From assembly GCA_013360395.1 (NCBI GenBank), contig JABWBQ010000021.1, forward strand, positions 1 to 47,361: a stretch of 47,361 nucleotides of DNA, in the 5' to 3' direction. The notes under the pieces are model-generated. The model was given only the letters and a program-made list of their open reading frames with translations, had not been told where the DNA came from and ran no database searches. The stretch's first letter is position 1, and every line of letters begins with the position of its first letter. Both the position numbers and the translations under genes were made by a program. Positions 32,778-46,761 of the stretch are shown piece by piece. The DNA comes from Flavobacteriales bacterium (GTDB lineage: Bacteria; Bacteroidota; Bacteroidia; Flavobacteriales_F; PHOS-HE28).

Positions 32778-33599
32778 CTACCCGTTCTCCCAGCGCGGCG
32801 GGCGCTTCTCCAGGAAGGCGGCGATGCCTTCGTTCGCATCGGCCGTGGCCATCAGCTGGTCCACGTACAGCTTCTCCAGCTGGGGCAGGAAGTTGGACAG
32901 CACATGGTTGAACTTCACGCGGGCGGCGCGCACGGCGAAGCGCAGGGACGAGGCGCTCTTGGGCAGGATGTGCTGCACGGTCCACGCGTCCACGGCGGCG
33001 TCGAGGGCGGCGCGGTCGGCGTGCACGGCATATACCAGGCCGATGTGCAGGGCCTCCTGCGCATCGATGCTGCGGCCGGTGAGCAGCAGTTCCCCGGCGC
33101 GCGCCAGGCCCACCTTCTCGGGCAGGATGATGGAGGCCGGCGGCGGGAACACGCCCAGCACGACCTCGGGCTGGCCCAGCTTCGCATCGGCCGCGGCGAA
33201 AAGCACGTCGCACATAAGCGCCAGTTCCAGGCCGCCGCCCAGGCACTGACCGCTGATCTTCGCCACGGTGGGGATGGCCAGGTCGCGCAGCGTGAGGAAC
33301 AGGCCGTGGAAGGCGCGGAGCATGGCGGGTGCCGCGTCGCGCTGATGCTCCTCCACGCTGGCACCGAAGCTGAAGTGCCGGCCCGCGCCCTCGAAGCAGA
33401 TCAGCTTCAGGGAGGCCGCCGTCGCGAAGCCGTCGAGCACTTCCTGCAGCTGCTCCATCATCCGATGGTCCAGCACGTTGCCCTTGCCGTCGTCCAGGGT
33501 GATGCGCGCCACCTGGCCGCCGTGGGTCCAGGCCAGCTTCACCTTGCCCAGGTCGCGGTCCTGTGGCGTGGTCTGCGCTGCGGGTGTGGTGGTGCTCAT
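32778..33599 (-). CDS. dch: Cyclohexa-1,5-diene-1-carbonyl-CoA hydratase (dienoyl-CoA hydratase)
   Basis: 273 residues, crotonase fold. The start at 33599 overlaps the oah stop by 4 bases. Features: VARITLDDGKGNVLDHRMMEQL, the oxyanion-hole segments FGASVEEH and ISGQCLGGGLELALMCDVLFAA, and LGQPEVVLGVFPPPASIILPEKVG, a proline-rich stretch seen in dienoyl-CoA hydratases of the benzoyl-CoA pathway. It would hydrate the dienoyl-CoA product of benzoyl-CoA reductase to 6-hydroxycyclohex-1-ene-1-carbonyl-CoA. The assignment rests on family look and on position with had and oah; a general enoyl-CoA hydratase is the alternative. Last gene of the cluster. Confidence 0.85.
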   Translation of the reverse strand: MSTTTPAAQTTPQDRDLGKVKLAWTHGGQVARITLDDGKGNVLDHRMMEQLQEVLDGFATAASLKLICFEGAGRHFSFGASVEEHQRDAAPAMLRAFHGLFLTLRDLAIPTVAKISGQCLGGGLELALMCDVLFAAADAKLGQPEVVLGVFPPPASIILPEKVGLARAGELLLTGRSIDAQEALHIGLVYAVHADRAALDAAVDAWTVQHILPKSASSLRFAVRAARVKFNHVLSNFLPQLEKLYVDQLMATADANEGIAAFLEKRPPRWENG

Positions 33600-34693
33600 G
33601 CCTGCTCGGTGCGGTATTGGGGGCTGATGGCGCGGTGCATCTCCTCGTCCCACGGACGGCCCTCGGCGAGCAGCTGACGCAGCTTCACGAAGTCCACCTC
33701 GCGGCGGTCCTTGGGCCCTTCGTTGAAGGCCTTGAAGCCGGCCCGGGCCTCGGTCATCATGTTCAGGGCGAGCCATTCGCGGCTGCTTTCCTTATTGCGG
33801 TCCCAGTGCTCGAGCTTCTTCTTGCGGATCTCGCTGAGCGACTTGACGGTGCAGTTGGGGAAGGTGTGGAGCAGCTTGGCGATGAGCCGGTCCACGGCCT
33901 TGTCCAGCTCGCCCAGGTCCACGGTGCCCTGTTTCAGCAGCGCACGGCCCCGTGCGGCCTCGTCGCCGGTGCGCCACTGGCCGTACACGATGTTGCCCAT
34001 GTCGTCCAGGAAGCGGTCGGTGACCACCAGCGGGTTGGGGACGTAGCGCCCGTCGATCCTCAGGGCGGGCACGATCTCGGTGACCAGGCCGATGAACTTC
34101 GCGTAGTGCGCGCTCCAGTGCTCGCAGAACGTGAGGGACTGCGCGGCCTTGTCGTAGCCCACGTGCAGGTGCAGGAAGTCGGTGCTGCCGCCGATGGCCG
34201 CGCTGCCGTGCTTGGGCCCGGCCTGCCCGAAGCGGGCCAGGTCGCTGGCCACGGTGAAGTCGCACGCCATGCCGATCTCCTGCCCGCCGGCGATGCGCAT
34301 GCCGTTCACGCGGTTGATCACCGGCTTGTCGCACTTCAGGATGCCGCTCACCATGTCGTTGAACAGCCGCATGTATTGCGCGTACTCCTGCGGATTGCCG
34401 GCGTAGTACTCGGCGTACTCCCTGGTGTTGCCACCGGTGCAGAAGGCCTTGTCGCCCACGGCGGTGAACACCACGGCCACCACGCTGCGGTCGTTGCCGG
34501 CCTCGGCGAAGGCCATCGTCACCTCCTTGACGGCCTGCGTGGTGTAGCTGTTGAACTGGGCGGGGTTGTTCAGGATGATCCAGGCGTTGAAGAGGCCGGG
34601 CACCACGGAGCCGTCGTGGTCGCGGCAGGGGCGCTTCTCGAACAGGATCTCCCGGTACGCCGTGCGGGTGAGGTTGTGGTCCTTCAGTTCCAT
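33596..34693 (-). CDS. oah: 6-oxocyclohex-1-ene-1-carbonyl-CoA hydrolase (ring-opening)
   Basis: 365 residues, the long crotonase typical of Oah/BamA. It opens the ring of 6-oxocyclohexene-carbonyl-CoA to 3-hydroxypimelyl-CoA and is the standard marker of anaerobic aromatic degradation. Diagnostic blocks: GLFNAWIILNNPAQFNSYTTQAVKEV, AFCTGGNTREYAEYYAGNPQEYAQYMRLFNDMV, NRVNGMRIAGGQEIGMACDF, GQAGPKHGSAAIGGSTDFL, and LNMMTEARAGFKAFNEG near the end. Starts 15 bases after had and overlaps dch by 4. Confidence 0.95.
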   Translation of the reverse strand: MELKDHNLTRTAYREILFEKRPCRDHDGSVVPGLFNAWIILNNPAQFNSYTTQAVKEVTMAFAEAGNDRSVVAVVFTAVGDKAFCTGGNTREYAEYYAGNPQEYAQYMRLFNDMVSGILKCDKPVINRVNGMRIAGGQEIGMACDFTVASDLARFGQAGPKHGSAAIGGSTDFLHLHVGYDKAAQSLTFCEHWSAHYAKFIGLVTEIVPALRIDGRYVPNPLVVTDRFLDDMGNIVYGQWRTGDEAARGRALLKQGTVDLGELDKAVDRLIAKLLHTFPNCTVKSLSEIRKKKLEHWDRNKESSREWLALNMMTEARAGFKAFNEGPKDRREVDFVKLRQLLAEGRPWDEEMHRAISPQYRTEQA

Positions 34694-34708: not shown

Positions 34709-35770
34709 TCAATCCAGGCCGGGCACCAGCACCGACCGTTTGCTGTACTTGTGCTGGATGGCTCCTTGGAACACCTCGTTGATGCGCGAGAGGGGGAAGG
34801 TCTCCACGAAGTCGCCGATGCGGAGCCGCCCGTCGGCGATCAGGTCGAGCACCTCGGGGTAGAGCTCGGCGCGGCAGCCCCAGGTGCCGATGAGCTTGGC
34901 GTCGAAGGCCATCAGGTTGCTCAGGCGCACTTCCACACGGTCCATGGTGAAGCCCACGATGCTCAGGGTGCTGGTGTAGGTGATGAGGTTAAAGGCCAGG
35001 TCCTGGCCGGCCCGCGTGCCGCTGATCTCGAAGATCTTCCAGCCCAGCTTGGGGGCGCCTATCTCGCCGGCGAGCACCTTCACGCGCTCCTTCACGGCCT
35101 TCTGGTCCATGCCGGAGGTGTTGAGGGTGGCCTCCACGCCCTGCGCCCGGGCGATGGCCAGCTTCGCATCGCTGATGTCGAGGGCGATGACCTTGGCGCC
35201 GAGGATGCGGGCGATGAGCGCGCCGTAGATGCCCACGCCGCCCACGCCGATCACGATGGCCAGGTCGCCGGGCACGAGCTCGGAGCGCTTCACCACCTGG
35301 TAGGGCGTGCTGATGGCGTCGGCGATCACGGCCAGCTGCTCCAGCGGATAGCGCGCCAGCACGGCGTCGGGCACCGCGCAGAGGAAGCGGTCGGGCACCA
35401 CGATGTGGGTGGCGAAGCCGCCGTGCATGTCGTTGCCGGGCATCACCTGGCGGCGGCAGATGTTGCTGCGCCCCTGGAGGCAAAGGGCGCACTCGCCGCA
35501 CGGCAGCACGGCGGGCACGATCACGGGCCTGCCCACCCACCGCGCATCGCCGGCCACCACCGTGCCGCTGATCTCGTGGCCCAGCGTGAGGGGCAGCGGG
35601 TGCTTGGTCTGTACGCCGTGGTGCCAGAAGCTCAGGTCGGTGTGGCACACGCCGCAGCCGGCCACCCGCACCAGGGCCTCGCCAGGACCGGGGACCGGCA
35701 GCGGTTGTTCATGCCGCACGAAGGCCTGGTCGGTGGCCACCATCCGCCATTGGTGCATCATCTCGCTCAT
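34709..35770 (-). CDS. had: 6-hydroxycyclohex-1-ene-1-carbonyl-CoA dehydrogenase
   Basis: 353 residues, zinc-type medium-chain alcohol dehydrogenase. Catalytic zinc site GCGVCHTD ... LGHEISG; structural zinc cysteines in PCGECALCLQGRSNIC; NAD-binding VIGVGGVGIYGALIARILGA. Compared with generic alcohol dehydrogenases it matches the Had subfamily (VMPGNDMHGGFATHIVVPDRFLC). It oxidises the hydroxyl made by Dch, giving the substrate of Oah. It has its own CRP/FNR-like promoter 24-67 bases upstream, so had-oah-dch can be transcribed apart from the upstream bcr genes. Confidence 0.9.
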   Translation of the reverse strand: MSEMMHQWRMVATDQAFVRHEQPLPVPGPGEALVRVAGCGVCHTDLSFWHHGVQTKHPLPLTLGHEISGTVVAGDARWVGRPVIVPAVLPCGECALCLQGRSNICRRQVMPGNDMHGGFATHIVVPDRFLCAVPDAVLARYPLEQLAVIADAISTPYQVVKRSELVPGDLAIVIGVGGVGIYGALIARILGAKVIALDISDAKLAIARAQGVEATLNTSGMDQKAVKERVKVLAGEIGAPKLGWKIFEISGTRAGQDLAFNLITYTSTLSIVGFTMDRVEVRLSNLMAFDAKLIGTWGCRAELYPEVLDLIADGRLRIGDFVETFPLSRINEVFQGAIQHKYSKRSVLVPGLD

Positions 35771-35793: not shown

Positions 35794-35837
35794 CGATGTT
35801 ACCACGGTCCCTTGCGCGGGATCATGATATGCGTCAT
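35794..35837 (-). promoter_or_regulatory. CRP/FNR-like site and -7 box inside the cluster, before had
   Basis: ATGAT-ATGC-GTCAT at 35824-35837 overlaps the stop of the fusion gene. Leftward, 22 bases separate it from TAACATCG (35801 to 35794), 23 bases before the had start. Geometry matches the bcrC and mobA promoters. Confidence 0.6.
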
Positions 35838-37705
35838 GGAACAGCCTTCGGCGGGGCCGCGGCCGTGTCCGTCCGGGCGGCGGCACGCCGATGGTGGTCG
35901 CGGGCGATGAGGGCCGCGCCGAACGACACCACGTACTGGGGCGCCTCCAGCACATGCAGTTCCACGCCGAGCTTCCCCTGGAGCAGTTCGCGCAGGTACG
36001 GATGGTGCGCCACCACCCCGCCGATCATCACGGTGGGGACACCCGGCGCAAGGCGCAACTTGGCCACCTTGCCGGCGATGCTCAGGTAGATGCCGCGCGC
36101 GATGTCCTCGGGCCGCATGCCGTCGAAGATCCAGTTCATGATCTCGGTCTTGGCGAACACGGTGCAGAAGCTGTTCAGCTCCTTGTCGTGGGTGCTCAGC
36201 GCCGCCATCCGGCTCATCTCGCCGATGTCGATGCGGGCGCGCTCGGCGATCTCGCTCAGGAAGGCGCCCGTGCCGGCGGCGCACTTGTCGTTCATGTGGA
36301 AGTTCTCCACCTCGCCCCGGGCATCGCAGCGGATCACCTTGATGTCCTCCCCGCCGATGTCGATGATGTTGAGCTCGCCCTGCACGTGGTGCTGCACACC
36401 CGCGGCGGCGCAGTTGATCTCGGTCTTCACCAGGTCGGTGGCACCGAAATGCTTGCGGCCGTAACCGGTGGCGCAGCTGTGCACGATGCGGAAGTGGGTG
36501 CTCACGGCCTTCATCACGTTGCTCACCGCCTGGCGGTCGGCGCCCAGGGTGGGCAGGCCGTAGCGGAAGAGCACGCGCCCTTCGCCATCGGTCACGGTGA
36601 ACTTGGTGAAGGCCGAGCCGAGGTCCACGCCGAGGTAGCACGGGGTCTCGCGGTACATGGCCGGGCTGGCGCCCTTCTCGGTGAAGCCCTTGTCGAGGAT
36701 CCTGCGGAACACGTCGCCCACGGGCCCGGGCACGCGGGAAATGATGTTCTTGTTGGTCATGGCCTTCACCATGTTGGTGAAGGTGAGGTTGAGCGAGGTG
36801 CGGACGTAGTGCTTGCGGCCGTATTCGACGATCTTGCCGTTGAAGTGGTCGATCTCGGTGGGCCGGCCCTGGATCAGGTCCACGGCGAGGCTGGGGAAGT
36901 GGTCGCCGCCGCGGCGCAGGTAGCGCATGCAGCGGCGCGTGAAGTCGTCCGGGAAGCGGATCTTCTCGTGCTCGGCCACGGCCACGGCCTCGCTGATGAC
37001 CTGTTCGATGAGCTCGCGCGAATCGGGATCGTCCATGGCCTCGGCCATGGTGAGGCGGCCCACACCGCACAGGGCGCTGAGCGAGGCGTTGAGGATGGTC
37101 TTCTCCCAGCTGCGCCGCAGCAGCTCGAAGCCGTCCACCGCCTCGGTGCGCAGGCCCGCACGGGTGAGCAGTTCGGCCAGTTCGCGCGCGCGCCCGGACT
37201 GGCTGTCGTCGATGCTGCCCAGGTAGTTGGGCGGCTGGTTGAAGTTCACCCGCAGGCTGTTGGGGCCGGTGATGCTGCCGGCGAAGTTCACCACCATGCG
37301 CAGGGTACGGTCGGCGCCGAAGGCCGCGGCCAGCATCTGCTCGGTGTCGATGCCGTTCTGCGCCGAGACCACCAGCAGGCCGGGGCTGTTGAGCACCTGC
37401 GCTTCCCCGGCGGCCTCGACGGTCTGGTAGGTCTTGGTGGCGAAGAACAGCACCTCGGGCGCGAGGTCCCGCAACCCGGCGATGTCGTCGACGACGGTGA
37501 TGCCCCGGGCATGTCCCTCAAGGGCGTGCTCCAGCACCAGGCCGTCCTCGGCGATGCGCCTTGCCCTCGTGCCGTTGCGCACCACCACGGCCACCTCGGC
37601 GCCCGCCTCGCGCAACTTGGTGGCCAGCACCATGCCCACCGGCCCCAGGCCGATGATGCCGATGCGCGGTCCGCTCCCCCGGTCGTTGTCCGTCGTGTGT
37701 TCCAT
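35834..37705 (-). CDS. Ketopantoate reductase-BcrA/D-type ATPase fusion
   Basis: 623 residues from the ATG at 37705 (a GTG lies one codon before). Residues ~12-320 form a PanE/ApbA 2-dehydropantoate reductase-type domain: Rossmann GIIGLGPVGMVLATKL, TKTYQT, the catalytic-lysine helix RRSWEKTILNASLSALCG, and GRPTEIDHFNGKIVEYGR with its conserved Glu. Residues ~355-605 form an ASKHA ATPase of the benzoyl-CoA reductase/hydroxyacyl-CoA dehydratase activator family: YLGVDLGSAFTK, CATGYGRKHFGA, IDIGGEDIKVI, and cluster cysteines in NDKCAAGTGAFL and FCTVFAKTE. Both halves look catalytically complete. I know of no described protein with this arrangement. It lies between an extra HgdB-type subunit and had, so it may drive that subunit and couple it to NAD(P)H. 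Confidence 0.85.
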   Translation of the reverse strand: MEHTTDNDRGSGPRIGIIGLGPVGMVLATKLREAGAEVAVVVRNGTRARRIAEDGLVLEHALEGHARGITVVDDIAGLRDLAPEVLFFATKTYQTVEAAGEAQVLNSPGLLVVSAQNGIDTEQMLAAAFGADRTLRMVVNFAGSITGPNSLRVNFNQPPNYLGSIDDSQSGRARELAELLTRAGLRTEAVDGFELLRRSWEKTILNASLSALCGVGRLTMAEAMDDPDSRELIEQVISEAVAVAEHEKIRFPDDFTRRCMRYLRRGGDHFPSLAVDLIQGRPTEIDHFNGKIVEYGRKHYVRTSLNLTFTNMVKAMTNKNIISRVPGPVGDVFRRILDKGFTEKGASPAMYRETPCYLGVDLGSAFTKFTVTDGEGRVLFRYGLPTLGADRQAVSNVMKAVSTHFRIVHSCATGYGRKHFGATDLVKTEINCAAAGVQHHVQGELNIIDIGGEDIKVIRCDARGEVENFHMNDKCAAGTGAFLSEIAERARIDIGEMSRMAALSTHDKELNSFCTVFAKTEIMNWIFDGMRPEDIARGIYLSIAGKVAKLRLAPGVPTVMIGGVVAHHPYLRELLQGKLGVELHVLEAPQYVVSFGAALIARDHHRRAAARTDTAAAPPKAVP

Positions 37706-37798
37706 CACCTTCGCTAGTCCTTCGGCCCGTCCGCCGGGCCTTGCGTTCCTGCCGTGTTCCCGCCGTCGCTCCCCTTGCCGCCCGCACCGTGCCCCCGC

Positions 37799-39028
37799 CT
37801 ACCGCACGCTCTCCCTTTCCGCCAGCTGTTCCAGGAAGGTCTCGATGCGCGTGGTGCTCTGCCCGTCGCTGAAGAAGCGCATGTCGCACAGGTCGCCTTC
37901 CACCACCAGGGCCGGCACACCCGAGAGCGCCCTGAGGCGTTGGGGCATGCCGAACTTGGCGTTGCTGTTGTTGAAGCAGGTCTTGGAGTCGTGGTACACG
38001 ATGCCGTCGATGCGGTAGTCCTCGAACCAGCGGGTGAGCATGGCCATCTTGGCCTTCTCGCTGCGGTTGATGAAGATCTCGGTGTAGGCGCGGGCGGTGC
38101 TCTCCCAGGGCTCGTGCTCATCGAAGCGGTCGAAGACCCAGCTGCTGCAATAGGTGCTGGCGACCACGGCCGCATCGTTGGAGGCGAAGAGGTCGCTGAG
38201 CATGCGCAGCCGGCCCCAGATGGGCATGCCCTCCCAGAAGATGCGGCTGCGCACACGGGGGATGAAGCCCCGGCCGGCCTGCACATTGGCCTGCAGCTCC
38301 TCCAGCAGCAGCGCGTAGTAGTCGCGGGCCTCCTGCGTGCCGCGCAGCACCACGATCGGCCCCATGTGGATGGTGCCGTCGAAGAAGCTCAGCGGCGGCG
38401 TGTCGGCGGCACTGGTGCGAAGCACTTGCTGCCACAGGAGCGTGGCCTCCCGGCTCAGGCGCACCGTTTCGCGGAAGCGCTCCTCGTCGAAGCGCCTCCC
38501 GCTCACCTGCTCGCACACCGGGACCATGCGCTTGAACTGCTTCACCACCAGTTGCACCTCGTCGTCGCTCACCTCGTCCAGGTGGCGCGGCGGGTGGATG
38601 CCCACGATGGGGCACTTGAAGGCGTCGGCGAAGAAGGTGAACCAGTCCTCCACCTCGCGGCACTGGTTGGTGTTGTAGGCGATCAGGTCGGGCTTGGGGA
38701 TGCCTTCGAGGCCGTAGTGCTTGCGCAGGGGCGTCTCGTTGCGGAGGTAGGCCCCGATGTCGCTGGTGGTGTAGGAGCACACATGGCCGCTGTAGCCGCA
38801 CTTCACCGCCTCGGGGATGTGGTCCATGGCGGTGCGGGTGGCGCCGAGCAGGGCGCCGTGGTTCTCCGGGAAGTACACCTCGAAGCCGAAGGAGCGCAGC
38901 AGCTCGGCCGGCCCCACGCTGGTGCACCAGGCCACCTTGCCCGCGCCGGATCCCAGCCGTTGGAAGTAGGCGCCCATGAGCTCCTTGAGCCGGTCGGTGC
39001 TGCGGATGGTGTAGGCCGGTGCGCTCAT
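37799..39028 (-). CDS. Additional 2-hydroxyacyl-CoA dehydratase/benzoyl-CoA reductase-type subunit
   Basis: 409 residues of the HgdB/BcrB/BcrC superfamily, a third such protein beside BcrB and BcrC. Features: KVAWCTSVGPAELLRSFGFEVYFPENHGAL (front Rossmann-like domain, Cys35), CGYSGHVCSYTTSDIG (Cys77, Cys84), a Cys in NTNQCREV, TYCSSW, YHDSKTCFNN (Cys351) and VEGDLCDMRFFSDGQSTTRIETFLEQL (Cys381). The three cluster cysteines of the family appear to be present. It overlaps the ligase gene by 4 bases and is followed by the ATPase fusion. It could be a subunit of a second ATP-driven reductase or dehydratase, or a double-cubane-type protein. Not assignable to bcrB or bcrC. Confidence 0.8.
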   Translation of the reverse strand: MSAPAYTIRSTDRLKELMGAYFQRLGSGAGKVAWCTSVGPAELLRSFGFEVYFPENHGALLGATRTAMDHIPEAVKCGYSGHVCSYTTSDIGAYLRNETPLRKHYGLEGIPKPDLIAYNTNQCREVEDWFTFFADAFKCPIVGIHPPRHLDEVSDDEVQLVVKQFKRMVPVCEQVSGRRFDEERFRETVRLSREATLLWQQVLRTSAADTPPLSFFDGTIHMGPIVVLRGTQEARDYYALLLEELQANVQAGRGFIPRVRSRIFWEGMPIWGRLRMLSDLFASNDAAVVASTYCSSWVFDRFDEHEPWESTARAYTEIFINRSEKAKMAMLTRWFEDYRIDGIVYHDSKTCFNNSNAKFGMPQRLRALSGVPALVVEGDLCDMRFFSDGQSTTRIETFLEQLAERESVR

Positions 39029-40764
39029 GGGGTGGTGGTGCTCGCGGCCGCGTCGTCCAGGCGGATCACGTACGCGTCCTCCGGCGGCATGCCGGTCTCG
39101 TCGTACAGGTGGTCGAGGTGTTCGCGGTAGGTCTCCAGCACCTTCACCGGCGCCACCTTCATGGAGGGGGTCAGGGTGCTCTTCTCCAGGCTGAGCTCGT
39201 CATCGATGATCACGGCCTTGCGCACTTTGCTGAACTTCTGGCCGATGCTGCAATTGGCGTTCTTCAGGCATCCGCGCAGGCATTGCTGCAGCTCCTCGAG
39301 GGTGCGCGGGCACAGGCAGCCGTCGAGGGGCGTCACGCTGTAGTCCGGGTTGCCCAGCTGGCGCCGGTCGGGGAAGAGCAGGGCCACGGGATAGTCCTGC
39401 CCGTTGCCGCTCACCACGGCGAAGGAGACGTAGTGGCAGCTGCCCTCGATGGCGCGCTCCAGGTCGGTGGGGATCACCTTCTCGCCGTTGCTGAGCTTGA
39501 AGATCCGGTCCTTGCGGGTGACGATGCGCAGGCCGGTGGGCCCCATTTCGCCCACGTCGCCGGTGCGGAACCAGCCGTCGTCGGTGAAGATGCCCGCATT
39601 GGCCTCGTCGTTCCGGTAATAGCCGCGCATCACGTTGGGCCCCCGCACCAGCACCTCGCCGTCGGCGTCGATGCGCACCTGCACACCGGGTATGGGCTGG
39701 CCCACCACGCCGGTGGCACGCTTCACGCCGGGGTCGGTGAGCGTGCAGCAGGGCGCGGTCTCGGTGAGGCCCCAGCCCTCGATCACGGGGATGCCGCGCT
39801 GCTCGAACGCGTCGCTGAGGCGCTGCGGCAGGGCGGCCGCGGCCGTGAAGATGAACTTCAACCCGCCGTGGAAGAAGAGCGCCCCCGCCTCGGGGCTCTC
39901 GTGGCTGAGGTCGTGGAGCGCCTGGTACACCTTGGGCACGCTGAAGAAGACCGTGGGCTTCACCGTCCGCCAGTTGGCCATGATCTCCGCCGCATCGCGC
40001 CCGAAGGACGACTCCAGGTACATGCACGCGCCGCGGTACAGCACGTTGAACAGCTCGAAGATGCCGCCGAAGCTGTGGTGCCATGGCAGGTAGGACAGGA
40101 AGCGGTCGTGCTCATCGAGCTTCCACCAACCGGTGGTGCTGAGGGCATCCTGCTGGGAGAGGATGTTGCGATGGCTGAGCTGCACGCACTTGGGCACGCC
40201 CATGGTGCCCGAGGTGTACATGTTCAGGCAGAGCGCGTCGGGGTCCACCGCGATGTCCATGGCCGCGCCGCCGTCCCCGGGGTGTGCGAGCAGCGCGCTG
40301 AAGGGGATGGTGCCCGCCGGCATGCCGGGGCCCACGGGGTCCAGCGAGATCACGGTGCGCAGCCCGAGGTCCGGACCGATCTTCTCCAGCTGCGCGGCCC
40401 CTGCGGCGGTGAGGTGGCGGGCGTCGCTGTGGCGCACCAGCAGCTCGGCGGTCTCGCGCTTGAAGTGGGCGAAGATGGGCACCGCGATGCCGCCGGTGGC
40501 CATCACGGCCAGCTCCATGCGCAGCATGTCCAGCCGGTTGGGCGAGAACAGCACCATCTTCTCGCCGGGGCCGAAGCCGCGGGCACGCAGGGCCGCGGCC
40601 ACCCGGGCCACGTCGCTGCCCAGCCTTCCCCAGGTGATGCTGCGCCAGGTGCCGTCGGCATCCTTCTCGGCGAACACGGGCCGGTCAGCGAAGCGCGCAG
40701 CGTTGGTGCGCACCAGTTCGGCCACGTTGCGGAAGCGGAGGGGGGGCGCGGGAGCTGGGTTCAT
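39025..40764 (-). CDS. AMP-forming acyl-CoA ligase
   Basis: 579 residues. The start at 40764 was chosen because the family region begins there (LRFRNVAELVRTNAARFADRPVFAEKD). Motifs: TSGTMGVPKCVQLSHRN (P-loop, with an unusual Met and Cys), GWGLTETAP, the FRTGDVGEM aspartate, DRIFKLSNGEKVIP hinge, and the C-terminal catalytic lysine in STLTPSMKVAP. The overall look is closer to long-chain-type acyl-CoA synthetases than to the ~520-residue benzoate-CoA ligases. Its place between bcrD and the extra HgdB-type gene suggests it activates benzoate or another aryl or cyclic acid to the CoA thioester. Substrate is unproven. Starts 13 bases after bcrD. Confidence 0.85.
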   Translation of the reverse strand: MNPAPAPPLRFRNVAELVRTNAARFADRPVFAEKDADGTWRSITWGRLGSDVARVAAALRARGFGPGEKMVLFSPNRLDMLRMELAVMATGGIAVPIFAHFKRETAELLVRHSDARHLTAAGAAQLEKIGPDLGLRTVISLDPVGPGMPAGTIPFSALLAHPGDGGAAMDIAVDPDALCLNMYTSGTMGVPKCVQLSHRNILSQQDALSTTGWWKLDEHDRFLSYLPWHHSFGGIFELFNVLYRGACMYLESSFGRDAAEIMANWRTVKPTVFFSVPKVYQALHDLSHESPEAGALFFHGGLKFIFTAAAALPQRLSDAFEQRGIPVIEGWGLTETAPCCTLTDPGVKRATGVVGQPIPGVQVRIDADGEVLVRGPNVMRGYYRNDEANAGIFTDDGWFRTGDVGEMGPTGLRIVTRKDRIFKLSNGEKVIPTDLERAIEGSCHYVSFAVVSGNGQDYPVALLFPDRRQLGNPDYSVTPLDGCLCPRTLEELQQCLRGCLKNANCSIGQKFSKVRKAVIIDDELSLEKSTLTPSMKVAPVKVLETYREHLDHLYDETGMPPEDAYVIRLDDAAASTTTP

Positions 40765-40777
40765 GGCACGGTGCGTT

Positions 40778-41635
40778 TCAGGCGGCCACGACGGCGGCCC
40801 GGTCCTTGATGCGGTGATGCCGGTACCCGCCCCAGAGCGCGGCGCCGATGGCCCCGCTGTAGATGGCATCGGGATGGGTCACCATCCGCAGCGGCTTCCT
40901 GCCTTCCCTGCTCAGCTCCTCCATGGCGTCCACCATGCCGATGTTCATGGCGATGCCGCCCATCAGGGCCACCGGCTCCTGGGCCTTCAGCGAGCTCAGC
41001 AGACGGATGGAACGGTTGGCGATGGACAGGTGGATGCCCTTGATGATGTTGGGGGTGGACACCCCGCGCGACACGCTGTTGATCACGTCGGTCTCGGCGA
41101 GCACGGCGCAGATGCCCGAGGGCAGCTCGGGCTTGTCGCTCTTGAGGCTGATGGGCCCCACCTCGTCGATGGAGAGGCCCAGGTAGCGCGAGATGTTCTC
41201 GATGAACTGGCCCGAGCCGCTGGCGCACTGCCCGGTCATCTTGTAGTCCAGCACCCGGCCGCGCTCGTCGATGCTGATGGCCCGCACGTACAGTGCCCCC
41301 ATGTCCACCACGGTGCGCGCACCGGGGCAGAGGAAGAGGCCGCCCCGGGCGTGGGTGGTCATGCTGTAGAAGTGGCCGGTCTTGCGTTCCACCAGCTCCC
41401 CTTCGCCCGTGCTGGCCAGGTAGGCGATGTCGCGCTCGTAGTCCAGCGCGTTGCGTTCCAGGACCATGGCGACGGCGTCCACCACCACGTCCTTGGGGTT
41501 GCGCTTGCGGATCTTCTCCACCTGCCGGTCGAACAGCCGGTGGTCGCCCGTGGCCTGGTCGTACCGCATCAGCACGGTCTTCACGTAGCTGCCGCCCACG
41601 TCCACGCCCATGGTGAGGATGCCTTTGTCGTTCAT
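40778..41635 (-). CDS. bcrD: Benzoyl-CoA reductase ATPase subunit BcrD (BadG-like)
   Basis: 285 residues, the normal length for BcrD/BadG. ASKHA ATPase that with BcrA hydrolyses ATP to push electrons into BcrBC. Motifs: TMGVDVGGSYVKTVLMRYD, VVDMGALYVRAISID, cluster cysteines in TGQCASGSGQFI and GICAVLAETDVINSV, and VALMGGIAMNIGMV. It overlaps the stop of the saccharopine dehydrogenase-like gene by 4 bases (start 41635). Upstream in-frame codons belong to that gene's shadow and were rejected. Confidence 0.92.
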   Translation of the reverse strand: MNDKGILTMGVDVGGSYVKTVLMRYDQATGDHRLFDRQVEKIRKRNPKDVVVDAVAMVLERNALDYERDIAYLASTGEGELVERKTGHFYSMTTHARGGLFLCPGARTVVDMGALYVRAISIDERGRVLDYKMTGQCASGSGQFIENISRYLGLSIDEVGPISLKSDKPELPSGICAVLAETDVINSVSRGVSTPNIIKGIHLSIANRSIRLLSSLKAQEPVALMGGIAMNIGMVDAMEELSREGRKPLRMVTHPDAIYSGAIGAALWGGYRHHRIKDRAAVVAA

Positions 41636-42768
41636 GTCGGTTCGTTGATGTCGGTGGTGGTGCGTTGCAGGCCGATGCCCTGCGCATGCAGATGCCCGAG
41701 CACGGCACGGTGGCATCCGGCGTCGGCGCCGAGGCGTTCGGGCGCGTTGATGCCGGGCATGCGATAGCGGCCGTCGGCCACCAGGAGCGCGGCGGCGATG
41801 CAGGTGTGGCCGGTGGTGCGCGCCATGGAAGTGGTGCCCCGGTCGTCCATGCGGTCCAGCAGGTGGTACACGTGCCGCTCGCGGTCGTCCTCCACGGTCA
41901 CCCGCATCACGGTGAGGTCCTCCTCGCCCGGTCCGAGCTCCCACTGGGCGAAGAGCAGACGGGCGGTGAGCGCCCGGGGCACCACGCGGGCACCCTGCAC
42001 CTCCACGGGCCCGGTGCCGAAAAGGCCGGCGTGGCGCAGGATGCGCATCCGTTCGGCATGGCCCGGATAGCGCAGGGTCTTCTCCTTCATGAACGGCACG
42101 TGGGGCATGGTGTGCAGCAGGGTGCGCAGCCCGTCGGTGTTGAACGCTTCCAGGGTGCCGAGGCCGTCGATGTCCACGGCCTCCACTTCGCTGAGCGCCT
42201 CGCGCGTGACCGCGGTGCCGTGTTCCACCAGCCGCGCCGGACGCGTGTATTCCTCGAGCACATCGGCCGGGCTGAAGACCGCCTTGTACTCCCAGGGCAG
42301 CTGGCGCGTGCGCGGCAGACCGCCCACCAGGCATTCGTAACGCACCAGCGGACGTTCCGCGTCGTGATGGCCGGCGATGATGTTGCAAAGGCCCGGCGCC
42401 ACGCCGCAGTCCACCACGGCCGTCACGTTCATGCGCCGCGCCAGGTCGTCCAGCGTGAAGGGGTCCTCCGGGAAAAAGCTGATGTCCACCACGTTCTTCC
42501 CGGCGGTGATGACGGTCTCCAGCGTCCGGTGGCCCAGGTGGCCGGGCACCGCGCCGATCACCAGTTCGGTGGGCTCCAGCAGGCGGTTCAATGCGGCGGC
42601 ATCGCTCACGTCCACCACCGCGGTGGTGATGTGCGGATCGCGGGCGATGCGGTCCAGGGCGGCGGGATCGCGGTCGGCGCAGGTCACCGCGAAGCGCCCG
42701 GCGAGGCCTTGCGCAATGGTGCGGCCGATCAGGCCCGCACCCAGGACGGTGACGCTGCGGAGGCTCAT
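41632..42768 (-). CDS. Saccharopine dehydrogenase-like oxidoreductase within the bcr genes
   Basis: 378 residues. N-terminal Rossmann domain with GAGLIGRTIAQGLAG, then AVPGHLGHRTLETVITAGKNVVDISF and AVVDCGVAPGLCNIIAGHH, both classic for saccharopine dehydrogenase/reductase relatives. The C-terminal half has FMKEKTLRYPGHAERM and ends with GHTCIAAALLVADGRY. Lys-Tyr-type activity is known for the family, but many members act on other substrates. It overlaps bcrA upstream and bcrD downstream by 4 bases each, so it is locked into the operon and probably has a pathway role. What it reduces or oxidises is unknown. No such gene is part of the textbook bcr operons of Thauera or Rhodopseudomonas. Confidence 0.8.
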   Translation of the reverse strand: MSLRSVTVLGAGLIGRTIAQGLAGRFAVTCADRDPAALDRIARDPHITTAVVDVSDAAALNRLLEPTELVIGAVPGHLGHRTLETVITAGKNVVDISFFPEDPFTLDDLARRMNVTAVVDCGVAPGLCNIIAGHHDAERPLVRYECLVGGLPRTRQLPWEYKAVFSPADVLEEYTRPARLVEHGTAVTREALSEVEAVDIDGLGTLEAFNTDGLRTLLHTMPHVPFMKEKTLRYPGHAERMRILRHAGLFGTGPVEVQGARVVPRALTARLLFAQWELGPGEEDLTVMRVTVEDDRERHVYHLLDRMDDRGTTSMARTTGHTCIAAALLVADGRYRMPGINAPERLGADAGCHRAVLGHLHAQGIGLQRTTTDINEPT

Positions 42769-44165
42769 GCCATGCCTTCGTTCTCCTCGGCCCCGGCCTT
42801 GGCGCCCTTGGCGGCGGCGGGCAGGTCGGCCTTGATGTTGCGGCGGGCGAACATGGCGCCGCCGAGCGCCCCCATGAAGATGGAGTCGGTGTGCACGTTG
42901 ATGGTGAGGTCCTGCCCGTAGTTGCGGCGCACCATGTCGCTCACATAGTGCAGCACGGCGTCGTTGCGGGCCACCCCGCCGGTGAAGGTGAACTCGTTCT
43001 TGACGCCACCGCTGCGGGCCAGCAGCGACAGGGCGCGCATGACGATGGCCTTGTGCAGGCCGGCCAGGATGTCCTCACGCCGTTCGCCCACGTTGAGCAG
43101 TTCGCGCAGCTCGGCGCCGGCGAACACCGTGCAGGTGCTGCAGATGGTCACCTCCTTCTCGGCCTTCATGGCCATGGGCCCCAGCTCGTTCAGGGAGATG
43201 TTGAGCTCGTCGGCGATGTAGCCCAGGTAGCGGCCGCAGCCGGCGGCACAGCGGTCGTTCATGTGGAAGCTGGTCACCAGGCCGTGGCTGTCCACCTGGA
43301 TGGCCTTGGTGTCCTGCCCGCCGATGTCGAGCACGGTGCGTGTCTTGGGAAAGACCGCATGTGCGCCGAAGGCATGGCACAGGATCTCGCTGCGGATGCA
43401 GTCCTCGGGGAAGGGCAGCAGGGCGCGGCCGTAGCCGGTGCCCACCATGCGGGCGATGTTGAGCTCCTCGGCGGCCACCCGGTCGATCGCTGCGGTGAAG
43501 GCCCCGGCGGCCCTGCGCAATGCGGCGGCCTCGTCGGGTGCCGCCTTCTCGGCGTGGTAGCGCTCGAGCATGGCCTGCGCCTGATGCACCAGTTCGCTGA
43601 AGTCGGGCGCCATCATCTCGTTCTCCACCGGGGTGATGCTCTTGTCGAACAGCAGCATCAGGGGCTCGAAGAGCTCCTTGGGGCGCTCCTCGACGGCCTT
43701 GGCGTAGGCCTCGCCCACGATGTCGCGGAAGAACTGGCCCTTGCCGCCCAGGTCCTCTTCCATGTAGCGCCGGCGCCCGGTGGCCAGGATGCCGTCCGCG
43801 ATCTCCTGCACGTGCTTCACCAGCTCGGTGGCGGGCACACGTGTCTCCACCTTCAGCGCGGTCTCGGCGAGCTCGCGCCGCAACCGCTCCAGACGGCTCT
43901 CGAACTGCACGAACTGGAAGGCGGCGTCGAGGTCGGCGGCGTAGCGTGCAAAGGCCGGGTCGGCGGCGATCTCCGCAGCGAGGGCCTGCTTCAACAGGTG
44001 GAAGCGCGCGTTGTACAGCGCCTGCACCTTGGCGATCTCGGCGGCCACCTCGTAGTTGGCGCGCGTGTTGGTGATGCCCTTGCCCACCACCTCGTCGCGG
44101 TCGTTGATGATGATGGCCTTGCTGGTGGTGGATCCCAGGTCGATCCCAAGGAAGTAGTCTGCCAT
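42765..44165 (-). CDS. bcrA: Benzoyl-CoA reductase ATPase subunit BcrA (BadF-like)
   Basis: 466 residues. ASKHA ATPase: FLGIDLGSTTSKAIIIN at the front, a ~180-residue helical insert (about 45-235) that distinguishes BcrA/BadF from the short BcrD, then VGTGYGRALLPFPEDCIRSEILCHAFGA, TVLDIGGQDTKAIQVD, cluster cysteines in NDRCAAGCGRYLGY and ICSTCTVFAGAELRELL, and FTGGVARNDAVLHYV. It pairs with BcrD to bridge a [4Fe-4S] cluster and drive ATP-dependent electron transfer. It begins 25 bases after bcrB. Confidence 0.95.
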   Translation of the reverse strand: MADYFLGIDLGSTTSKAIIINDRDEVVGKGITNTRANYEVAAEIAKVQALYNARFHLLKQALAAEIAADPAFARYAADLDAAFQFVQFESRLERLRRELAETALKVETRVPATELVKHVQEIADGILATGRRRYMEEDLGGKGQFFRDIVGEAYAKAVEERPKELFEPLMLLFDKSITPVENEMMAPDFSELVHQAQAMLERYHAEKAAPDEAAALRRAAGAFTAAIDRVAAEELNIARMVGTGYGRALLPFPEDCIRSEILCHAFGAHAVFPKTRTVLDIGGQDTKAIQVDSHGLVTSFHMNDRCAAGCGRYLGYIADELNISLNELGPMAMKAEKEVTICSTCTVFAGAELRELLNVGERREDILAGLHKAIVMRALSLLARSGGVKNEFTFTGGVARNDAVLHYVSDMVRRNYGQDLTINVHTDSIFMGALGGAMFARRNIKADLPAAAKGAKAGAEENEGMA

Positions 44166-44190: not shown

Positions 44191-45480
44191 TCAGGCGGTG
44201 GCGAGCACTTTGCGCTGCGCCAGCATCTGGAAGAAGGAGTCCAGGCGGTTCTTGATGTTGGAATACGAGAAGTAGCGCGGGTCCACCAGGTCGCTCTCGA
44301 TGAAGCCCACGGGGATCTCCAGCTTGTCCTCCAGGTCGCGCATGATCATGAGCTGGCCGGCGCTGAAGCTGTTGCAGCTCTTGATGGAGTTGATCAGGAA
44401 GCCGTCGGCCTGGTACTCGGTGATGCACTTGCCCAGCAGGTCGATGCGCTGGGGCAGGTTCATGTTGGTGTAGCAGTTCATGCAGTACTCGGCCAGGGTC
44501 TCCAGGGGCCGCGCGGGGTCGTGGCGGAAGCCCAGGTCGTACACGCCGCCCACCTTGGTGTAGCTGCTGGCCACGATCACGGCGCCCTGGTCGTGGAACA
44601 GCTTCCAGAACTCGCGGAAGCTGGTCCAGTTGGGCGGCCCCTCCACCACCAGGCGGTACTTCTCCTCCTTGATCTCGCCCTCGGGCGTCACCGGCCCCCT
44701 GCCCTCGGCCGCGCGCTGCTTGATCTCCTTCAGCAGCTCCTCGTAGTAGGTGACGGCCTCGGGGGTGCCCCGGAAGCCGATGTTGATCGGCCCGATGTAA
44801 TACACCCCGGCGAAGTAGGCGTCGATGGGCGAGGGGCGCTGCCGGCTCTGTGCGAAGATCTCGGTGATCAGGTCGTCGGTGCGCTTGCTGTTCGCCAGGA
44901 TCCCGGCCAGGCGCGCCTCATCGAACTTTTTCCCGGAGACCTTCTCGAACTTGGGGATCACCTCCTCGCGCAACTGCTTCACCATGTACTGCCGCATCTC
45001 GTCGGTGATGCGGCCGCCCTCCTGGTAGGGCGTGTGCAGCATGGCGATCTCGGCGTTGGGGTAGAGGCGCTCCAGGTTCTCGAACCACTTCATGAAGGTG
45101 AAGCAGCCGGTGTAGCTCAGCAGCAGCAGGTCGGGCTCGGGCAGCTTCTGCCCCGTGGGGCCCACGTTGCCGTTGAGCATCATGCCGATGTCGCACTTCA
45201 CGTAGGTGCACACGTCCTCGCTGTGGCCCCATTTCTCCGCATCGCGGATGAAGGCGGCGCTCTTCTTGCGCATGCCGCTCTGCAGGGCGTTGATCTCGGG
45301 GTACACCGGCAGCATGTCGAAGGCGCGGATCAGCTCCGACAGGTTGCCGGGCACGAAGGTGTACACCACCTTGCGCCCCTTCTCGCGCGCCGTGGCGAGC
45401 TCCTTGAAGAGGCCCTCGACCATCTCCTTCTGCATGATCATGCTGCGCTCCTTCTCGACGGGTGCGGTCGGTTTCGCCAT
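44191..45480 (-). CDS. bcrB: Benzoyl-CoA reductase subunit BcrB (BadE-like)
   Basis: 429 residues, matching BcrB of Thauera in length. One of the two catalytic subunits that bind [4Fe-4S] clusters and benzoyl-CoA. Blocks: KVVYTFVPGNLSELIRAFDMLPVYPEINALQSG, EDVCTYVKCDIGMMLNGNVGPTG, LLLLSYTGCFTFMKWFENLERLYP, EGPPNWTSFREFWKLFHDQGAVIVASSYTKVGG, YCMNCYTNMNLPQR and NSIKSCNSFSAGQLMI. Cluster cysteines lie in CTYVKC and IKSC. An ATG 13 codons in (MIMQKEM) is an alternative start. It begins 33 bases after bcrC. Confidence 0.95.
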   Translation of the reverse strand: MAKPTAPVEKERSMIMQKEMVEGLFKELATAREKGRKVVYTFVPGNLSELIRAFDMLPVYPEINALQSGMRKKSAAFIRDAEKWGHSEDVCTYVKCDIGMMLNGNVGPTGQKLPEPDLLLLSYTGCFTFMKWFENLERLYPNAEIAMLHTPYQEGGRITDEMRQYMVKQLREEVIPKFEKVSGKKFDEARLAGILANSKRTDDLITEIFAQSRQRPSPIDAYFAGVYYIGPINIGFRGTPEAVTYYEELLKEIKQRAAEGRGPVTPEGEIKEEKYRLVVEGPPNWTSFREFWKLFHDQGAVIVASSYTKVGGVYDLGFRHDPARPLETLAEYCMNCYTNMNLPQRIDLLGKCITEYQADGFLINSIKSCNSFSAGQLMIMRDLEDKLEIPVGFIESDLVDPRYFSYSNIKNRLDSFFQMLAQRKVLATA

Positions 45481-45513: not shown

Positions 45514-46695
45514 TCATGCAGTGGCGGCCTCCCCTTCCCACAGCTTGATGCTGTCGGCGAAGGCGCCCACCTGCTCCTTGATCACCTTGAACTGGCCGGT
45601 GTTCTCGTTGTACTGGAATTGCACGTAGCGCACGCCCTCCTTCTCGCACTGGTGGAAGTAGAGCGGCTGGTCCAGCAGCGCCGGATCGCAGAAGCTGGGC
45701 GCGGCGAACACCAGCCCGTCGGCGCCGCGGCGCCTGGCGAGGTCCAGCAGGCGCTTCTCCTTGGGGTTCCCCACGTCGTACACCACGCTGCTCTGCACGC
45801 TGCGCGTGAGGTAGGCGTCGGCGATGGCGGCCAGCGGATCGCCGTTCCCACCACCCACGGCGCCCTCGATCCAGCGCGAACCCAGCAGGAAGTCGTCGTC
45901 CACCACGTAGCACCCGGCGGCCTCGATGGTCTTGATCAGGCCCAGCGGCGGCTGCTCGCAGAACGCGCCGGCCACCACCACCTTGATGCGGTCCTCGGGC
46001 ACACCGCGCTCCCGCCCGATGGCCTCCAGCACCTGCTCCAGCATGGCGTTGTGCTCCTCCACCGGCATCACCAGGCCCGCCCGCATGATGCAGTACAGGT
46101 CCTCGTAGGCCAGGCGCCAGGGATGGTCCTGCCGGATGTCGTAGATCGCCGCCAGCATCGCCCGGTTGCGGTCGTACAGGGCGATGGAGCGGTCCAGGGC
46201 GTCGGCGGTGACCTGCACGCCGTTGATCGCCTCGATGCGCCGCAGCACATCCTCCATCTCGGCCTTGTAGAACGCCCCGCCGATCTCCGCGCGGAAGTTC
46301 TGCGGGAAGTCCATGTACTTGGCGAAACGCCCCTTGCCCATCAGCTGGAACATGCCGCTGAGGTTGCGCATCACGTCGCAGATGCTGGGGAAGACGAAGC
46401 CGTCGAACCCGTCCAGGTTGCCGTCCAGCGCCAGCTCCACGATGCCGCGCGGCATGTGGCAGATGTAGGACTGGTAGTAGGCATCGCCCTTGATGATGGG
46501 CTTGCGGTCGCCAGCGCCCAGGATGCCCACGGCCAGCCCCTTGGCGGCGTGCACCACCTCACGCGGGAAGTAGATGGGCGTGAAACCCACCAGCACGCGC
46601 TGCGGGTCCTGCGCCTTCCACGCCTTGGCACGGCTGAAGTTCAGGTCGAAGGCAAGCTGGCGGCAGGTGCTGATGATCTCCTCGAGTGGCGTCAT
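45514..46695 (-). CDS. bcrC: Benzoyl-CoA reductase subunit BcrC (BadD-like)
   Basis: 393 residues from the ATG at 46695, where family alignment would begin (TPLEEIISTCRQLAFDLNFSRAKAWK). An ATG at 46746 would add a 17-residue CxCxC head and leave almost no leader after the -7 box. Blocks: GFTPIYFPREVVHAAKGLAVGILG, GDAYYQSYICHMPRGIVEL, FDGFVFPSICDVMRNLSGMF, DFPQNFRAEIGGAFYKAEM, AGLVMPVEEHN and SFCDPALLDQPLYFHQCEKEGV. Together with BcrB it forms the ring-reducing half of a class I enzyme that dearomatises benzoyl-CoA. First gene of the cluster, behind a CRP/FNR-like promoter. Confidence 0.95.
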   Translation of the reverse strand: MTPLEEIISTCRQLAFDLNFSRAKAWKAQDPQRVLVGFTPIYFPREVVHAAKGLAVGILGAGDRKPIIKGDAYYQSYICHMPRGIVELALDGNLDGFDGFVFPSICDVMRNLSGMFQLMGKGRFAKYMDFPQNFRAEIGGAFYKAEMEDVLRRIEAINGVQVTADALDRSIALYDRNRAMLAAIYDIRQDHPWRLAYEDLYCIMRAGLVMPVEEHNAMLEQVLEAIGRERGVPEDRIKVVVAGAFCEQPPLGLIKTIEAAGCYVVDDDFLLGSRWIEGAVGGGNGDPLAAIADAYLTRSVQSSVVYDVGNPKEKRLLDLARRRGADGLVFAAPSFCDPALLDQPLYFHQCEKEGVRYVQFQYNENTGQFKVIKEQVGAFADSIKLWEGEAATA

Positions 46696-46761
46696 GGTCG
46701 GTCCGATCACTGCTCCCTGACCATCGCCGCACGCGCAGCTGCACATGGCCGGAGGGCCGTG

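Follow-up and report, generated by a model that had tools for sequence, protein, structure and literature searches.

The locus described here raises the question of why a benzoyl-CoA reductase (bcr) operon should encode a PanE/ApbA-type reductase and a radical-enzyme activase as a single polypeptide. Activases of the HgdC/BcrA family are usually separate small proteins. In the window (the whole stretch analysed, 47,361 nucleotides of contig JABWBQ010000021.1 from a Flavobacteriales bacterium), one frame on the minus strand is open without a break from a GTG at 37708 (ATG at 37705) to the stop at 35834. The first-pass annotation had read this frame as a ketopantoate reductase (KPR) domain joined to a BcrA/HgdC-type activase, and the profiles and the structure model bear this out. 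Pfam places ApbA at residues 16 to 163, ApbA_C at 197 to 317, and BcrAD_BadFG at 359 to 602, each above its gathering score, and TIGR00745 and TIGR00241 both exceed their curated cut-offs; by both databases, a complete KPR domain (residues 15 to 320) precedes a complete activase (residues 359 to 602). The protein fails the models for the benzoyl-CoA reductase subunits BcrA (TIGR02259, 93.7 bits; cut-off, 578) and BcrD (TIGR02261, 65.7 bits; cut-off, 312.85).

The AlphaFold2 model (mean pLDDT, 81; pTM, 0.52) contains two folds joined by a low-confidence linker at residues 318 to 330; it is a single-chain model in which the mutual placement of the domains is unreliable. Residues 14 to 320 adopt the KPR fold (VIA Z, 25 to 33), with KPRs and D-mandelate dehydrogenase as matches, and residues 355 to 610 adopt the activase fold (Z, 24 to 28), with the activators 9gai, 4eht, 1hux, and 7yyl as matches. 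Pfam, NCBIfam, and structure comparison identified only KPR families in the reductase part and neither a flavin nor an additional Fe-S domain; the VIA-align rows compare domains only, and the lack of other folds among them is uninformative. Across 74 aligned fusions, conservation reaches at least 97% in ~180 columns, among them those of the KPR catalytic residues and the activase cysteines: G20xG22PVG25, N118, K203, N207, S273, and E285, as well as C476 and C515, show no or almost no variation. The Rossmann loop (G20 to G25), the catalytic Lys and Glu, both cluster cysteines, and the short linker, all noted at the first reading, are thus features of the whole group, in which the linker length is almost constant. 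With both Pfam domains, TIGR00745, the Rossmann loop, and the Lys/Asn/Ser/Glu set, the first half belongs to the PanE/ApbA superfamily; with an ASKHA domain, TIGR00241 above its cut-off, and two cluster cysteines, the second is an HgdC/HadI/BcrA-type activase.

The fusion is genuine, as had been supposed. Full-length copies are present in 7 of 39 relatives (an eighth is broken at contig ends), in about 48 of 395 Bacteroidia genomes, in 10 genomes from a second class of the phylum, and in about 70 named public MAGs; these collections overlap, and the counts are not additive. Because full-length fusions recur in all of these sets, an assembly error or a chance read-through is excluded as their origin. 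With wider sampling, the fused forms need one change on the KPR tree and two on the activase tree. In the plasmid collection, no record covered 80% of the fusion, and the HgdD relatives found there were <30% identical. The first-pass annotation had allowed that the architecture might prove common and already characterised: it is common in Bacteroidota, but we found no paper that describes or names it. A divergent KPR-activase fusion (41%) was identified at L058:3780-5618 in an 82%-complete genome (G179) in which no HgdD protein was found; it may have a different partner, or the genome may be incomplete.

In the window, the operon runs from upstream to downstream in the order bcrC, bcrB, bcrA, a saccharopine-dehydrogenase-like gene, bcrD, an AMP-forming acyl-CoA ligase gene, HGDD2, the fusion gene, had, oah, and dch, with several 4-bp overlaps between genes (Table 1). 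The saccharopine-dehydrogenase-like gene occurs in few relatives only (7 of 73 loci). The placement of the fusion in a bcr operon stands, with one correction: since the operon encodes its own BcrA and BcrD, which serve BcrBC, the fusion is an extra activase and not the Bcr activase. A role as part of the Bcr enzyme is ruled out by the same two genes and by a genome, G316, that has the components with no match to BcrB. No aminotransferase gene is present in the window operon. Elsewhere on the contig (15196 to 25776), genes resembling, by sequence, a respiratory nitrate reductase cluster and nitrate transporters suggest nitrate-dependent degradation of aromatic compounds.

Table 1. Fusion gene, its domains, and the neighbouring operon genes in the window
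Feature	Position	Strand	Basis or remark
Whole fusion gene	35834..37708	minus	624 codons from GTG; 623 aa from ATG at 37705
KPR (PanE/ApbA-family) reductase domain, residues 14-320	36749..37669	minus	Pfam/NCBIfam, fold, catalytic residues in 74 fusions
Linker, residues 321-355	36644..36748	minus	Alignment; low pLDDT at 318-330
ASKHA ATPase/activase (archerase), residues 356-610, cysteines C476 and C515	35879..36643	minus	Pfam/NCBIfam, alignment, fold
bcrC	45514..46746	minus	TIGR02263, 449 bits
bcrB	44191..45480	minus	TIGR02260, 656 bits
bcrA	42765..44165	minus	TIGR02259, 439.7 bits, below cut-off of 578; operon position
Saccharopine-dehydrogenase-like gene between bcrA and bcrD	41632..42768	minus	Pfam; locus comparison
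bcrD, benzoyl-CoA reductase activase subunit	40778..41635	minus	TIGR02261, 312.6 bits (cut-off, 312.85)
AMP-forming acyl-CoA ligase (longest frame; start uncertain)	39025..40869	minus	Pfam; 4-bp overlap with HGDD2
C-terminal ligase subdomain, conserved five-Cys motif	39025..39522	minus	Free-standing gene of ~156 aa in 32 of 73 loci
HGDD2, single HgdD-family subunit, HadB-like; putative [4Fe-4S] ligands C84, C123, C351	37799..39028	minus	
had, 6-hydroxycyclohex-1-ene-1-carbonyl-CoA dehydrogenase	34709..35770	minus	TIGR03201, 450 bits
oah, 6-oxocyclohex-1-ene-1-carbonyl-CoA hydrolase	33596..34693	minus	TIGR03200, 584 bits
dch, dienoyl-CoA hydratase (crotonase family)	32778..33599	minus	4-bp overlap with oah; named by position beside oah/had and similarity in our own comparisons, not by family profile

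The same gene order was found in 73 loci, many of them incomplete at contig ends, so that all counts over this set are lower bounds. HGDD2 adjoins the fusion gene in 70 of them, and a thiolase gene, carried by 50, usually follows the fusion directly. The fused activase probably pairs with HGDD2, and the fusion travels with it and with an acyl-CoA ligase, which is AMP forming in 34 loci and ADP forming in about 30 and is thus conserved in kind and not in family. FadB-like hydroxyacyl-CoA dehydrogenases are encoded in many of the operons and 2-oxoacid:ferredoxin oxidoreductases in several. The C-terminal subdomain of the window ligase carries a five-Cys motif (CHY...GCxCPR...C..GC). In most operons with an ADP-forming ligase, this subdomain is a free-standing gene between HGDD2 and the fusion gene (e.g., L089:9534-10004); it was not found in G316. 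The motif may mark a metal or Fe-S site, or the subdomain may be a third component of the module.

HGDD2 is the third HgdD protein of the operon and is closest to the HadB alpha subunit (NF052455, 198 bits, versus 158 for the BcrB model; best PDB match, 3o3m), and the three Cys residues predicted to ligate the active-site cluster are kept. Class I benzoyl-CoA reductases are relatives of the 2-hydroxyacyl-CoA dehydratases and have an aqua-[4Fe-4S] active site (PMC11971306). The known 2-hydroxyacyl-CoA dehydratases are alpha-beta heterodimers; an ATP-driven homodimeric activator starts them with a single electron, after which they complete many turnovers (PMC11574389). No dedicated beta partner was found for HGDD2 in the seven genomes that have exactly three HgdD proteins or in G316; because those genomes hold only BcrB, BcrC, and HGDD2, and G316 holds HGDD2 alone, gene content does not provide for an alpha-beta heterodimer, and HGDD2 is probably a homodimer.

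The association with benzoyl-CoA degradation is close. Of 395 Bacteroidia genomes, 51 encode BcrB, 52 have the KPR/activase pair, and 50 have both (hypergeometric p, 8e-60, over 26 families, with relatedness ignored). The exception (G337), with BcrB and without the pair, is a 67%-complete genome in which HGDD2 runs off its contig. In G316, in which no BcrB match was found, the class II reductase subunit BamB is encoded twice (1226 bits to PDB 4z3w for one copy), and KPR, HGDD2, and activase are encoded by separate genes next to dch/had/oah and 4-hydroxybenzoyl-CoA reductase; in G532, which has a Bzd-like reductase, the three genes lie on separate contigs. Because these two genomes have the HGDD2-KPR-activase trio, the trio follows the benzoyl-CoA pathway, whether with class I (Bcr, Bzd-like) or class II (Bam) enzymes, and not one reductase. 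The first BamB candidates, L153 (G316) and L154 (G177), matched aldehyde:ferredoxin oxidoreductase (AOR) better than BamB and were rejected; L157 (G316) and L156 (G177) are true BamB loci. L153:1456-3438 combines the C-terminal half of an aldehyde:ferredoxin oxidoreductase with a NuoG-like ferredoxin region, and the N-terminal AFOR domain is apparently absent. Class I Bcr and class II BamB coexist in G177 (L156, L062), and G316 has two copies of the BamB-type cluster (L157, L158, L170, L171); class II benzoyl-CoA reductase in Bacteroidota is perhaps worth reporting in itself.

Related genomes have the KPR and the activase as separate genes of the same cluster. The fusion thus joins two independently functional proteins, and neither activity requires it, as each half also occurs by itself. 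HGDD2, KPR, and activase are three neighbouring genes in G238, G331, G058, G789, and G801. A single-contig genome, G653, has HGDD2, KPR, two 4-hydroxybenzoyl-CoA reductase genes, and then the activase. Six further genomes (G968, G871, G956, G947, G863, and G895) share an ADP-forming ligase, HGDD2, a first KPR (KPR-a), a HisC-family aminotransferase, a second KPR (KPR-b), and molybdenum-enzyme maturation genes; 4-hydroxybenzoyl-CoA reductase, activase, and had come next in the five whole loci. In G895, a contig end splits the cluster, the second half of which is found on a different contig. The operon of G956 also includes oah, dch, thiolase, and a FadB-like gene, and in G532 the aminotransferase gene has a 4-bp overlap with KPR-a. 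The aminotransferase link comes from seven genomes of another class, and an aminotransferase beside KPR is the strongest hint that the KPR substrate is a 2-oxo acid derived from an amino acid. KPR-b retains every catalytic residue. In the KPR-a copies beside HGDD2 (L223:4609-5586, L184:9475-10434, and similar), the catalytic Asn is replaced by Ile (Val in one), and this copy may have a different or noncatalytic role. In some loci, the [2Fe-2S] gamma and molybdenum alpha subunits of 4-hydroxybenzoyl-CoA reductase form a single fused chain (L057:2128-4941, L181:15191-17995, and L223:12875-15598).

KPR relatives of the domain include NADH-dependent D-mandelate dehydrogenase (3wfi, the best KPR match in Foldseek; 5x20, with a Z of 31.6). 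Asn184 of the Escherichia coli KPR, a pantoate-pocket residue, is kept in the KPRs aligned and is Ser in the fusion clade (Ser211 in the fusion). This replacement indicates that the pocket is not that of pantoate reductase, and by this residue the domain would not be a ketopantoate reductase proper. A Paracoccus KPR encoded next to a gene for 3-keto acid cleavage has the same Ser; its neighbourhood gave no link to 2-oxo acids and only a possible 3-keto-acid context. A housekeeping PanE role is unlikely, since the family follows the bcr genes; against this rejection, the fusion is the only ApbA_C protein of G000. At position 43, which bears on the choice of NADH or NADPH, 55 of 74 fusions have an acidic residue at the end of beta-2, and the window protein has V43-R44. 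Lactococcus PanE has been used as a D-hydroxyacid dehydrogenase (PMC7583248, citing Chambellon 2009). A second, unfused KPR in G177 (L061:5682-10614) lies beside a sodium/solute symporter gene, had, and oah, with no HGDD2 or activase nearby.

On balance, we favour a bifunctional protein that would supply two activities of one reductive route from an aromatic 2-oxo acid to (hydroxy)benzoyl-CoA. The KPR domain would reduce a 2-oxo acid with NAD(P)H, most likely phenylpyruvate or 4-hydroxyphenylpyruvate from phenylalanine or tyrosine; we infer both this substrate and the (R) configuration of the 2-hydroxy acid produced. The neighbouring ligase would convert the product to a 2-hydroxyacyl-CoA. The activase domain, dimerised around a [4Fe-4S] cluster, would use ATP and reduced ferredoxin to deliver one electron to HGDD2, which would remove water by a ketyl-radical mechanism to give a 2-enoyl-CoA (cinnamoyl- or 4-coumaroyl-CoA). 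Hydratase/dehydrogenase and thiolase steps could then yield acetyl-CoA and benzoyl-CoA or 4-hydroxybenzoyl-CoA, the latter being reduced to benzoyl-CoA, which would enter the Bcr/Dch/Had/Oah pathway. The fusion might fix the stoichiometry of the two activities or keep the activase where the substrate is made. The first-pass annotation had proposed that the reductase acts on the product of the partner subunit; this came closest of its suggestions, but gene order and the aminotransferase place the KPR upstream, where it probably makes the precursor of the substrate of HGDD2.

The closest known systems are FldABC/FldI (phenyllactate dehydratase of Clostridium sporogenes) and LdhA/HadA/HadBC/HadI (2-hydroxyisocaproate in C. 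difficile), which likewise combine a 2-oxo acid reductase, CoA activation, an HgdD-family dehydratase with an active-site [4Fe-4S] cluster, and a dimeric ATP-dependent activator, here predicted. The present system differs from them: its reductase is a KPR-family domain joined to the activator, a ligase attaches CoA, the dehydratase comprises one type of subunit, and the product is probably not reduced but passed on to beta-oxidation and benzoyl-CoA. The activase half resembles BcrA/BcrD, BzdP/Q, and MbdP/Q in its ASKHA ATPase fold, bridging-cluster cysteines, and location in the same operon (best PDB match, 9gai, MbdQ), but it goes with HGDD2, and G316 has unfused relatives of it and no class I Bcr. 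The reductase half shares its fold and catalytic Lys/Asn/Ser/Glu with Enterococcus D-mandelate dehydrogenase and Lactococcus PanE, and the acidic beta-2 end of most fusions with the NADH-dependent members, from which the V43-R44 of the window protein departs; compared with D-mandelate dehydrogenase, it is only ~22 to 24% identical, has Ser at the E. coli N184 position, and is fused to an activase. The double-cubane cluster protein with its reductase (DCCP:DCCP-R) also pairs a single HgdD-family product with its own activase, and DCCP is homodimeric, as HGDD2 is predicted to be, whereas HGDD2 has the three-Cys pattern of HadB/BcrB and not the double-cubane set.

The neighbouring genes of the cluster point to a route, so far undescribed, by which phenylalanine and tyrosine would reach benzoyl-CoA. 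We tentatively propose, at somewhat under even chances, that Bacteroidota use radical alpha-dehydration for this purpose, with a single-subunit homodimeric dehydratase and a bifunctional reductase-activase encoded in the benzoyl-CoA operon; the order of intermediates, offered equally guardedly, would be arylpyruvate, (R)-aryllactate, aryllactyl-CoA, cinnamoyl/coumaroyl-CoA, and beta-oxidation. For a benzene degrader, a similar series that runs from phenylpyruvate through phenyllactyl-CoA and cinnamoyl-CoA to benzoyl-CoA has been put forward on paper (PMC13416013). Several observations weigh against such an aromatic entry route. The window operon lacks an aminotransferase, the ligase could instead be a benzoate-CoA ligase, the KPR pocket is altered (Ser for N184), one KPR copy of the unfused operons has lost the catalytic Asn, the second KPR of G177 lies beside Had-Oah without its own HGDD2, and, by analogy with the known alpha-beta dehydratases, HGDD2 would be expected to have a beta partner. 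Part of this evidence would fit a KPR that acts on an intermediate of the central pathway, for example as a dehydrogenase of 3-hydroxypimelyl-CoA or another ring-derived acyl-CoA, with HGDD2 and the activase handling a side product or ring intermediate. That is a less likely explanation, though one to be taken seriously: the KPR adjoins had in G316 and lies near had-oah without HGDD2 in G177, the trio accompanies Dch/Had/Oah regardless of reductase class, and the change of N184 to Ser affects the substrate pocket. The fusion would then be, with the same rather low probability, a device of the central pathway and not of an entry route. However, many operons already encode FadB-like hydroxyacyl-CoA dehydrogenases, the aminotransferase between the KPR genes is left unexplained, and proteobacterial benzoyl-CoA pathways are not known to need a KPR or an extra HgdD protein.

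HgdD enzymes were first known with hydroxyglutaryl-CoA, and a module that turns a nonaromatic 2-oxo acid into an enoyl-CoA, such as 2-oxoglutarate to glutaconyl-CoA via (R)-2-hydroxyglutarate, would be consistent with the 2-oxoacid:ferredoxin oxidoreductase genes of several operons. It might even run in reverse, from glutaryl-CoA to 2-oxoglutarate for ferredoxin reduction, as an ADP-forming ligase could work in the ATP-making direction. We regard the module as improbable in the forward direction, and its reversal as no less so: the AMP-forming ligase that replaces the ADP-forming one runs towards the thioester, HGDD2 is HadB-like, and 4-hydroxybenzoyl-CoA reductase and the aminotransferase suit aromatic substrates better. 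Least probable of all is that the KPR feeds or gates the activase, either by routing hydride-derived electrons to the cluster or by sensing NAD(P)H, as the first-pass annotation had suggested. The covalent linkage, the nearly constant linker length, and the invariant nucleotide-binding loop would fit a direct coupling, but a fold that handles hydride only, with neither flavin nor Fe-S, is unable to donate single electrons directly, the halves exist apart (separate genes in G653, different contigs in G532), and all of the KPR catalytic residues are conserved, a set that would be superfluous for sensing.

The fusion is widely conserved within an aromatic-ring-degradation gene cluster of Bacteroidota. 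A conserved union of an activase with a 2-oxo-acid reductase couples two steps of the same route, and it assigns a testable function to a gene that would be annotated as 2-dehydropantoate 2-reductase or activase. The phenylacetate route is known in Thauera and Azoarcus. If our reading of an aromatic entry route is true, it would differ from that route, would show how many uncultured Bacteroidota channel aromatic amino acids into benzoyl-CoA, and would provide a minimal one-subunit dehydratase for mechanistic work.
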